This document shows, piece by piece, positions 47,020 through 49,968 of a DNA stretch of 64,000 nucleotides (its first letter is position 1; each line of letters opens with the position of its first letter). The notes beneath the pieces were generated by a model that was not told the origin of the DNA, made no database searches, and saw only the letters and a list, made by a program, of their open reading frames with translations. This DNA comes from an uncultured Idiomarina sp. (GTDB lineage Bacteria > Pseudomonadota > Gammaproteobacteria > Enterobacterales > Alteromonadaceae). The stretch lies in NCBI GenBank assembly GCA_946885915.1, contig CAMPHF010000008.1, positions 62,001 through 126,000 of the forward strand, read 5' to 3'. A program made the translations under genes and the position numbers.

Positions 47020-47913
47020 ATGACACCCAACGCCATGACCTCACAACCTTACGTTGGTCGTTTTGCCCCCACACCTTCGGGCCCGCTTCATGCGGGCTCT
47101 TTGGTGGCCGCACTCGGCAGTTACTTAGATGCTAAAGCGCACCAAGGGCATTGGTTAGTTCGTATTGAAGATGTGGACACCCCCCGCTGCCAACCGCAAG
47201 CCGCTGTTACCATTCTTGAACAACTAGCTGCGCACGGGCTGAAATGGGATGGAGACGTCATTTATCAATCCCAACAAACCGGTCACTACCAAGAGTATTT
47301 CGATCAATTATACGACCAAGGGTTACTCTACCGTTGTAACTGTACCCGCCAACAAATTAAAGCGGCTGGGGGTATATATAGCGGCCATTGCCGCGTTCAT
47401 CCGCCAGCGGCAAACGCCCGCTGTGCTTGGCGCTACCGAAATAATCAGCCCATATTGCACTGGCACGACCTAGGTTGTGGCGCTACGGACATCGACCCGG
47501 CGTTTGCTCGCGAAGATTTTATCCTGCGCCGTCGTGACGGTTTATTTGCCTATCAACTGGCGGTGGTTGCCGACGATATTGCCCAACAAGTAACGCATAT
47601 AGTTCGGGGCCGCGATTTGCTCACCGCCAGTGCTTGGCAACTCACGTTGTGGCAGCAACTCGCCGGGCGCTTACCCCAACTCTATCATTTACCGCTGGTG
47701 GTCGATGCCGACGGCCGTAAGCTCAGTAAGCAAAATCATGCGCCTGCACTGCGTCATGATGAGGTGGTGGCGCAGCTGCTAATGGCGGCACAGGCGCTCG
47801 GCTTGCATCTCCCTGCTCAGCTCACATCGCCAGCAGCAGTGCTTGAGTCTGCACTCAATGCATGGATAACACAGGGTTACTCTTCCTTCGCTCGCAGCAG
47901 CAAGCTACAATAA
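47020..47913 (+). CDS. gluQ: glutamyl-Q tRNA(Asp) synthetase
   Basis: A 297-residue class I synthetase fragment paralogue lacking the anticodon-binding domain. It attaches glutamate to queuosine at position 34 of tRNA-Asp. Motifs are RFAPTPSGPLHAGSL (HIGH-type), RIEDVDTPR, the zinc cluster YRCNCTRQQ with C at SGHC, and RKLSKQN (KMSKS-type). Either the ATG at 47020 or the one at 47035 could start it; the first has AGG six bases upstream and is kept. The pcnB start follows after about 70 bases. dksA-gluQ-pcnB-folK is the enterobacterial order. Confidence 0.96.
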   Translation: MTPNAMTSQPYVGRFAPTPSGPLHAGSLVAALGSYLDAKAHQGHWLVRIEDVDTPRCQPQAAVTILEQLAAHGLKWDGDVIYQSQQTGHYQEYFDQLYDQGLLYRCNCTRQQIKAAGGIYSGHCRVHPPAANARCAWRYRNNQPILHWHDLGCGATDIDPAFAREDFILRRRDGLFAYQLAVVADDIAQQVTHIVRGRDLLTASAWQLTLWQQLAGRLPQLYHLPLVVDADGRKLSKQNHAPALRHDEVVAQLLMAAQALGLHLPAQLTSPAAVLESALNAWITQGYSSFARSSKLQ

Positions 47914-47971
47914 CGGCTAGATTCTAGGCAGTATGTAGCGACAGCGCCTAGGTAGCCATATCAGCCCGCTT

Positions 47972-47986
47972 GGAGAAGCAGTTATT
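47972..47986 (+). promoter_or_regulatory. pcnB: ribosome binding site and AUU start codon of pcnB
   Basis: GGAG at 47972-47975, an eight-base spacer, then ATT at 47984-47986 in frame with the conserved PcnB N-terminus. Between the in-frame TAG at 47936 and this ATT there is no ATG, GTG or TTG codon in frame. Confidence 0.75.
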
Positions 47987-49453
47987 ATTAAACGCATCAA
48001 GGACTTTGCCCGCAAAGCACTGACACTAGGTCAGCGCCAAGGTGAGCAGCGCAGCGCAACCGTTCAAACGCTTACTCAGCCGATTGTGATACCGCGCGAC
48101 AAGCACCCTATCTCACGCAAAGACATCAGTCCAGAAGCGCTTAAAGTGCTGTATCGACTGCATAATAATGGTTTTGATGCGTACTTAGTCGGCGGCTGTG
48201 TTCGCGATTTACTGCTTGGCATTCAACCCAAAGACTTCGATGTTGTCACTAATGCTAAGCCCGAGCAGGTACAAAAATTGTTTCGTAACTGCCGCTTGGT
48301 CGGCCGCCGTTTTCGGCTAGCTCATGTGGTGTTTGGACGCGAGTTTATTGAGGTCGCAACCTTCCGCGGTCACCACCAACTCGATGATGACGATAGCCAA
48401 GATACTAAACGTGCTAAAACTAGTGATGCTGGCATGTTATTGCGCGACAACGTGTACGGCACCATTGAAGAAGATGCCGCGCGACGCGACTTCACCGTGA
48501 ATGCGCTGTATTACAGCATTGCCGATTTTGCGATTTATGATTATGCCAATGGCGCCAAAGATTTAGAGCGCGGTGTGCTACGGATGATTGGGGATTGTGC
48601 CGAACGCTATCGTGAAGATCCGGTGCGGATGTTACGTGCGGTGCGCTTTGCCACTAAGCTCAATATGCGCTTAGATCCTGCGGTGAGTGGCCCCATTAAA
48701 GAACTTGCGTCGTTGCTTGCCAGTATTCCGCCAGCACGCTTGTTCGATGAAAGTTTAAAGTTATTTGCGGCGGGCAAAGGCTTGGCGAATTTCGATATGC
48801 TGAGTGAGTTTGGCCTATTCCAACAGCTATTCCCGTTGCTCAAAGTGTATTTAAAAGCACCAAGTGAGCCGCCGGCGCAAATGATCCGTCAAACCTTTGC
48901 CGACACCGACGCGCGCATTAAAGCCGACCTGCGTATTACCCCAGCTTACTTGTTCGCAGCCTTATTATGGTGGCCGATGCAAGCACGCCAAGAGCAACTC
49001 CTTAGTGAAGGTGGATTAGCGCCAGCGGATGCGATGAATTTAGCGGCGGCAGATGTGTTTGGTAAGCAAGTACAAACTATTGCTATTCCGAAACGCTTTA
49101 GTATTCCTGCTCGCGAGATTTGGCAGTTACAAAGCCGCCTAGCGCGCTATCAGGGTAAGCGAGCGCTTACCCTCGTTGGCCATCCGCGGTTCCGGGCCGC
49201 CTACGATTTCTTACAGCTGCGTGCCAGCACCGCCGCCAGCGATAAACCCACGCTCGACAAACTGGTGGCGTACTGGACCAAGGTGCAGCAGGACCCCAAT
49301 GCGGCGGCACCAAGTTCTCACCGCGGTCGTGATCCTGATGCCGACAACGAGCAAGTAGCGCCTGCAGGTGACAAGCCCAAGCGGGCGCGCCGACGCGGCG
49401 GTCGCGGTGGCCGTAAGCGCCATAGTAGTTCGCGTAAACCTGATTCAGCATGA
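47984..49453 (+). CDS. pcnB: poly(A) polymerase I, probable AUU start
   Basis: A 489-residue protein if started at ATT 47984. PcnB adds poly(A) tails to RNA 3' ends, promoting decay. The catalytic core has LVGGCVRDLLLG and the metal-binding KDFDVVT (Asp84, Asp86), then RFRLAHVVFG and EDAARRDFTVNALYY. A basic Arg/Gly-rich tail ends the protein. The only standard start in frame is GTG 48086, which has no Shine-Dalgarno and removes 34 residues. Those residues (IKRIKDFARKAL and IVIPRDKHPISRKD) align well with the E. coli N-terminus. E. coli pcnB is known to start at AUU, so the same is likely here. The TGA overlaps the folK ATG. Confidence 0.93.
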   Translation: MIKRIKDFARKALTLGQRQGEQRSATVQTLTQPIVIPRDKHPISRKDISPEALKVLYRLHNNGFDAYLVGGCVRDLLLGIQPKDFDVVTNAKPEQVQKLFRNCRLVGRRFRLAHVVFGREFIEVATFRGHHQLDDDDSQDTKRAKTSDAGMLLRDNVYGTIEEDAARRDFTVNALYYSIADFAIYDYANGAKDLERGVLRMIGDCAERYREDPVRMLRAVRFATKLNMRLDPAVSGPIKELASLLASIPPARLFDESLKLFAAGKGLANFDMLSEFGLFQQLFPLLKVYLKAPSEPPAQMIRQTFADTDARIKADLRITPAYLFAALLWWPMQARQEQLLSEGGLAPADAMNLAAADVFGKQVQTIAIPKRFSIPAREIWQLQSRLARYQGKRALTLVGHPRFRAAYDFLQLRASTAASDKPTLDKLVAYWTKVQQDPNAAAPSSHRGRDPDADNEQVAPAGDKPKRARRRGGRGGRKRHSSSRKPDSA

Positions 49454-49968
49454 GCAGTCGGGTGTATATTGGGTTAGGGGGGAATCTGGGCGATGTTTGC
49501 CAAACCCTAACCGCTGCACTGAACGCCATTAACCAACTCCCGCACACTGCGGTTGAGTCGGTGTCGTCATTTTATCAAAGTGTGCCACTTGGACCTACTG
49601 ATCAACCCGATTTTATCAATGCGGTAGCGTTATTGCGCACCGCACAATCGCCACTGTCGCTACTGCGCCTGCTGCAACAAATCGAGCTCGATTTTGGTCG
49701 AGAGCGCAAACGGCACTGGGGTGAGCGCACGCTGGATCTTGATATTTTAAGTTTCGACAATCTGCAGCAATTCGATCCTGTGCTAACATTGCCTCACCCA
49801 GGTATTTGTGAGCGTGAATTTGTGGTGTTACCGCTTGCTGAAATCGCAGCGGATTTGGTCTTGCCCGACGGTACTATGGTGGCAACCCTCGCCAACACGC
49901 TGGGTGCTGACCCAGAGCGCCCGCTGCGAATTGTGGCGCCGGCCCCCGACTTATCAAGAGGAATCTAA
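49450..49968 (+). CDS. folK: 2-amino-4-hydroxy-6-hydroxymethyldihydropteridine pyrophosphokinase
   Basis: A 172-residue HPPK of folate synthesis, transferring pyrophosphate from ATP to 6-hydroxymethyl-dihydropterin. Signatures are [11 protein letters not shown] at the N-terminus, [10 protein letters not shown], and [12 protein letters not shown] with the metal-binding aspartates, then [16 protein letters not shown]. The ATG overlaps the pcnB stop by four bases, and its TAA shares its last A with the panB ATG. pcnB-folK-panB-panC is therefore one tightly coupled unit. Confidence 0.97.

Follow-up and report, generated by a model that had tools for sequence, protein, structure and literature searches.

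Where does translation of pcnB, the gene of poly(A) polymerase I, begin in the window, the stretch of 64,000 nucleotides from an uncultured Idiomarina sp. that was analysed here? The AUU start of pcnB in Escherichia coli is already known; the accessible parts of PMC9764084, PMC4245954 and PMC9410913 attribute it to Binns & Masters 2002, and those of PMC9410913 and PMC1780047 name only infC and pcnB as AUU-started genes in E. coli. An earlier note on this DNA had proposed that pcnB of the window starts at AUU as well, a reading now backed by the same alignment column, a conserved codon and Shine-Dalgarno (SD) element and a codon-position pattern. With a probability of about 0.8, we conclude that the gene is AUU-started, with 47984 as the likeliest and 47987 as a possible start, that its enzyme would hence be scarce, and that the start is old and probably kept by selection.

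The pcnB gene and its neighbourhood

Begun at 47984, pcnB (47984..49453, + strand) encodes a protein of 489 aa. In profile searches the protein scored 506 bits against TIGR01942, which passes the cut-off of 305.65. The form begun at ATT scored 576.5 bits against NF008634, below the cut-off of 702 for this narrower equivalog, which is still the best-scoring family in the table. The NF008634 match covers the ATT form from residue 1 to residue 472; the 34 residues lost by a start at GTG thus align with PcnB N-termini, as the earlier note had suggested for that of E. coli. The TIGR01942 match begins at residue 35 of the ATT form, the residue of GTG 48086.

The gene is flanked by gluQ, coding for tRNA glutamyl-Q34 synthetase (47020..47913, + strand; TIGR03838, 343.9 bits, cut-off 276.7), on its upstream side and by folK (49450..49968, + strand; TIGR01498, 131.8 bits, cut-off 54.1) on its downstream side. 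Both neighbours are those of E. coli, and the order dksA-gluQ-pcnB-folK in the window is the E. coli order. The next two frames beyond folK are presumably panB and panC. The nearest named pcnB locus that was found belongs to Pseudidiomarina planktonica, with 74% identity over the best segment, which assigns the window to an Idiomarinaceae bacterium.

It is the first residue of the TIGR01942 model itself that falls on the residue of GTG 48086, past the AUU-encoded N-terminus, and the model may thus reflect truncated gene calls.

The start region and its counterpart in E. coli

The pcnB frame is bounded upstream by an in-frame TAG (47936..47938, + strand). From there it runs through CGA CAG CGC CTA GGT, then AGC CAT ATC AGC CCG and CTT GGA GAA GCA GTT, to ATT ATT AAA CGC; the start region reads GGAGAAGCAGTT ATT ATT AAA CGC ATC, with the frame counted from 47984. 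Between the TAG and the GTG at 48086..48088 (+ strand) the window holds no in-frame ATG, GTG or TTG, as had been claimed before. This GTG, the first canonical codon, lies 34 codons 3' of ATT 47984 and opens a listed ORF of 455 aa; on the present reading it is internal to the translated sequence. Exactly eight bases (47976-47983) separate the SD-like element GGAG (47972..47975, + strand) from the most likely start codon, ATT at 47984..47986 (+ strand), which confirms the coordinates given in the earlier note. What the note overlooked is that the ATT is repeated in frame at 47987..47989 (+ strand), so that there are two adjacent AUU candidates and the exact start codon, 47984 or 47987, is ambiguous.

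In E. coli (locus L010) the corresponding region reads GAGGTGTACT ATT TTT ACC CGA GTC, and its ATT, at which the RefSeq CDS begins (L010 position 2411), falls into the same aligned column as ATT 47984. Among 5426 E. coli genomes, 5374 contained the 90 bases around this start; identity was at least 99% in 5355 records and 95-99% in 19, values that describe the whole stretch and not the ATT itself. The two genes share the AUU at the same column, an upstream SD element and the neighbours dksA, gluQ and folK. They differ in that E. coli has ATT TTT behind GAGGTG, whereas the window has the tandem ATT ATT behind GGAG. The window gene carries an AUU at the E. coli column, its frame there is open and offers no canonical codon that is nearer, and its GGAG stands at a working SD distance (aligned spacing 7).

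Conservation of the start in close relatives

For close relatives, a denser family sample of 395 genomes gave 77 matches at a strict limit, and the best 30 of the 77 were taken as loci. Together with the loci collected earlier, and after five duplicates had been dropped, this resulted in 36 distinct loci including the window (L330 was missed by the motif script), which we call Idiomarinaceae-type, a label assigned from similarity. At the first codon, 33 of the 36 have ATT and three have ATC; at the second, 21 have ATT and 15 have ATC. GGAG precedes the first ATT/ATC by 7-9 nt in 34 of the 36 loci (8 nt in 21, 7 nt in 12 and 9 nt in one). The comparison that the earlier note had called for therefore came out in its favour for the codon, for GGAG and for the upstream frame, which is conserved. 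Its expectation that no ATG appears upstream stood for most relatives and failed for seven, none of whose ATGs is common to the other close relatives: in L004, L005, L018 and L312 an ATG precedes the start column by 5-6 codons, and in L313, L315 and L324 ATGs precede it by 41-52 codons.

The N-terminal stretch, which was taken to begin at the third codon and to end before the core, differed between relatives by 0.18, 0.10 and 0.34 per site at codon positions 1, 2 and 3, and the stretch from -45 to -17, read in the same register, by 0.45, 0.42 and 0.40. Both sets of values come from 25 pairs of equal N-terminal length, which are not independent of each other. A codon-position pattern that is present after the ATT and absent upstream is to be expected if the N-terminus is translated.

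The start column in a wider gammaproteobacterial set

Searches around a Pseudidiomarina genome covered 79 genomes of the family, 148 of the order and 151 of the class and found matches in 79, 141 and 142 of them, respectively; the match in G032, from the family search, was weak and no larger than those that tRNA nucleotidyltransferases give. A subset of the matches was read, namely the loci returned by the searches and regions for 40 places from the family, 100 from the order and 40 from the class search. Without eight duplicates, the 276 sequences left 268 for a midpoint-rooted FastTree tree of the core. The part of the tree that holds both the window and E. coli comprises 193 loci, of which 168 have alignable N-termini and 25 were set aside as unalignable. 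As the scoring matrix misplaced the start column in some loci, 16 (including L197) were placed by hand, 13 of them within the 193-locus set.

An AUU, AUC or AUA codon stands at the column that holds the start in E. coli or at the next one in 159 of the 168 alignable loci, and in 147 of 155 without the 13 hand-placed ones. It occupies the first column only in 70, both columns in 65 and the second only in 20, and in four (L203, L208, L100, L108) it has a GTG directly upstream; apart from the 20, two loci with the AUN at the second column only also have a GTG upstream. L179 was counted as AUU despite a weak SD and an ATG 17 codons downstream. Six loci have an ATG (L125, L150, L153, L158) or a GTG (L033, L035) one codon upstream of the column and no AUN, two carry GTG (L190) or TTG (L038) at the first column itself, and the last, L274, shows an AUU two codons upstream by eye. 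ATG was found at neither the first nor the second column in any of the 168 alignable loci, and 22 of 167 loci are devoid of any ATG, GTG or TTG from the stop to the core. Among the 25 unalignable loci an in-frame ATG, GTG or TTG occurs in 24 and an ATG in 21, L223 having none; examples of those with a canonical codon are L193-L196 and L198, in which the N-terminal segment is missing. Some lineages would thus have escaped to ATG, GTG or TTG, which they use or may use, and the weak start is common, not obligatory.

Comparison shows the putative AUU start of the window to be homologous to that of E. coli, with the translated frame, the codon and the SD conserved and no AUG at the two columns. A control on neighbouring genes was too rough to weigh: dksA was readable in three loci only (ATG in 3/3); within 25 codons before the motif, gluQ had an ATG in 98 of 123 loci, GTG/TTG without ATG in 12 and none of the three codons in 13; the figures for folK were 40, 6 and 3 of 49, and those for pcnB itself, over 45 codons, 79, 75 and 39 of 193.

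Position of the start codon

An SD match was defined as at least 4 bases matching the complement of the 16S tail at an aligned spacing of 4-10. Such a match precedes the first-column AUN in 124 of 135 loci (GTG-flanked ones excluded) and internal ATT/ATC codons of the alignable loci in 461 of 2534 cases; the SD before the first-column AUN is more frequent than expected by chance. Among the first-column-only loci with an SD match, 56 of 71 have an aligned spacing of 6; among tandem loci, 51 of 61 have one of 6-8. The first ATT of the window has an aligned spacing of 7 and the second hence, by arithmetic, one of 10. When 41 long frames of the window were examined at their leftmost ATG, 6 was the commonest spacing (7 of the 24 with a match).

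Translation might also begin at one of two other places. In the first case the ribosome would start at the second ATT, 47987, and the first ATT would be leader. In favour of this, the 20 second-column-only loci have ACC, GCT, ACT, CTC, CTT, AGT or GTT at the first column, none of them known as a start codon, which makes the second column a usable start in relatives. The spacing of 10 in the window, against 7 to the first ATT and mostly 6 in first-column-only loci, speaks against it, as does the NCBI protein of Idiomarina tyrosinivorans (P0033), which is annotated, not experimentally shown, to begin at the first ATT of ATT ATT AAG CGC in L307. SD spacing thus favours 47984 without proving it, and we consider a start at 47987 rather improbable. 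In the second case translation would begin at GTG 48086, and the similarity upstream of it would be untranslated. This codon is the first canonical one, TIGR01942 begins there, and so does the database protein identical to that of the window (P0001, 455 aa), which is without the 34 residues, just as the earlier note had predicted for gene callers. The codon-position pattern, however, is present upstream of the GTG, the annotated E. coli start is ATT, and the GTG is not conserved: eight of the 36 Idiomarinaceae-type loci lack canonical codons from the stop almost up to the core, and the others have theirs at differing sites, the commonest (+7) in 11 of 36. We rejected this start on the codon-position pattern and conservation and see hardly any chance for it.

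A canonical start further upstream was likewise rejected, there being none in the window and scattered ones in some relatives. Among the 120 relatives listed, the starts of the database proteins vary widely over many different sites. According to the accessible text of PMC3091656, infC with ATT is often mispredicted as well.

A possible shift of the start by one codon

On the tree, the inferred changes between start arrangements were six from tandem to second-only, two from first-only to tandem, and one each from first-only to second-only and from second-only to tandem, counts that rest on one tree and one parsimony resolution. In the simplest reading, the tandem AUU-AUU would let the start move by one codon while remaining weak.

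Probable selection against AUG and the possible role of IF3

Each AUN codon is one base away from AUG. At the third base of the first column we inferred 18 changes (14 T to C, three C to T and one C to A), and none to G, whereas G is the outcome of 327 of the 1366 changes from T or C at 42 four-fold columns in these loci. By our arithmetic, on one tree, 18 changes would include no G with a chance of about 0.007. Since the unaligned loci could conceal reversions, the evidence of selection against AUG at the pcnB start is modest. The proposal of the earlier note that the weak start is under selection is hence carried to this modest degree by the absence of changes to G and weakened by the lineages that use or may use ATG, GTG or TTG.

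The AUU start might also be real and nevertheless an inherited relic, for which a good SD suffices, with neither selection nor control by IF3. That several lineages replaced AUU, which is thus not obligatory, would fit such a relic, and so would the fact that the selection test has just 18 inferred changes. On the other hand, a single substitution turns AUU into AUG and leaves the protein unchanged, yet neither column holds ATG in the 168 loci, and the third base shows 18 changes where four-fold columns average 54 each. A mere relic is in our view unlikely, and a start retained probably by selection against AUG is preferred.

As a control with a gene of the same kind, infC was searched for in 40 genomes; 39 matched and 30 loci (L277-L306) were obtained, of which 29 were readable and one (L291) was unresolved. 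Read by eye from the codons, the infC start of these relatives is ATT in 22 of 29, ATA in seven and ATG in none. Two genomes with an upstream ATG at pcnB (G159, G123) retain ATT at infC. The seven ATA codons indicate that the AUN start of infC drifts too while staying non-AUG. Like pcnB, infC has a near-cognate AUN start behind an SD that is conserved across the same genomes; judged from the accessible part of PMC5472188, its regulator is its own product (IF3 autoregulation), whereas the putative control of pcnB by IF3 would act on another gene.

Similar cases are described in the available portions of two reports. IF3 represses the GTC start of sigR in Streptomyces, a non-canonical start that, like that of pcnB, is conserved in most members of its group and overlooked by gene callers (PMC5472188); sigR differs in gene, codon and phylum, and the IF3 effect is shown for sigR and inferred for pcnB of the window. 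In Staphylococcus, the AUU start of cvfC1 and the AUA start of ccpN are conserved and gave about 10% of the AUG output in poor medium in reporters (PMC13009471). These two resemble pcnB of the window in having conserved near-cognate starts and differ in gene, phylum and their extended SDs.

A proposed mechanism would run as follows. GGAG would place the ribosome at AUU, most likely at 47984 and possibly at 47987. The initiator tRNA would read this codon poorly and IF3 would tend to reject it, and through both effects initiation is proposed to be slow and poly(A) polymerase scarce. Low PcnB output, IF3 as its agent and the avoidance of excess polyadenylation as the benefit are what we infer. 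The AUU/AUC start would be old in a large gammaproteobacterial group and kept in most of the sampled lineages. We give even odds to the broader idea that the weak AUU/AUC start of pcnB is an ancient, selected trait of a large gammaproteobacterial group, with a start that in several lineages shifted one codon downstream via the tandem, which the window still shows, and stayed AUU or AUC, and that the gene would be a second widely conserved target of IF3 beside infC.

If this is true, RNA decay would be tied to the levels of an initiation factor through pcnB. AUU/AUC at pcnB in many genomes, at a column free of AUG, would make of a curiosity of E. coli a case in which selected weak initiation can be tested. 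Annotation is concerned as well, since the database entry that matches the protein of the window exactly is 34 residues short. The spread of the pcnB AUU, the tandem AUU-AUU and a start that shifts by one codon and stays AUU/AUC are possibly new; in a literature search that left subscription papers mostly outside we recognised no report of pcnB AUU conservation, and Binns & Masters 2002 may contain a comparison.

Loci outside the 193-locus set

Of the 75 loci outside the 193-locus set, which were read by eye, L209, L243, L247, L246 and L221 look AUN-started behind an SD-like stretch, and many, uncounted, carry ATG, GTG or TTG. Four divergent PcnB relatives from the order search (L212, L213, L214, L215) share a conserved ATT, followed by ACC or TCN. 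A GAGG-like stretch precedes this ATT by about 8-9 nt in L212, L213 and L215, whereas L214 has, besides the ATT, an upstream ATG in frame. In 12 of the 75 loci (L071, L078, L091, L093, L094, L095, L216, L222, L226, L227, L230, L236) the stretch TATTATAC, which resembles an extended -10 promoter element, stands just 5' of the pcnB core. Two of the 12, L091 and L236, have an in-frame ATG 6 nt after the end of TATTAT, an arrangement that would give an mRNA that is leaderless or has a very short leader.
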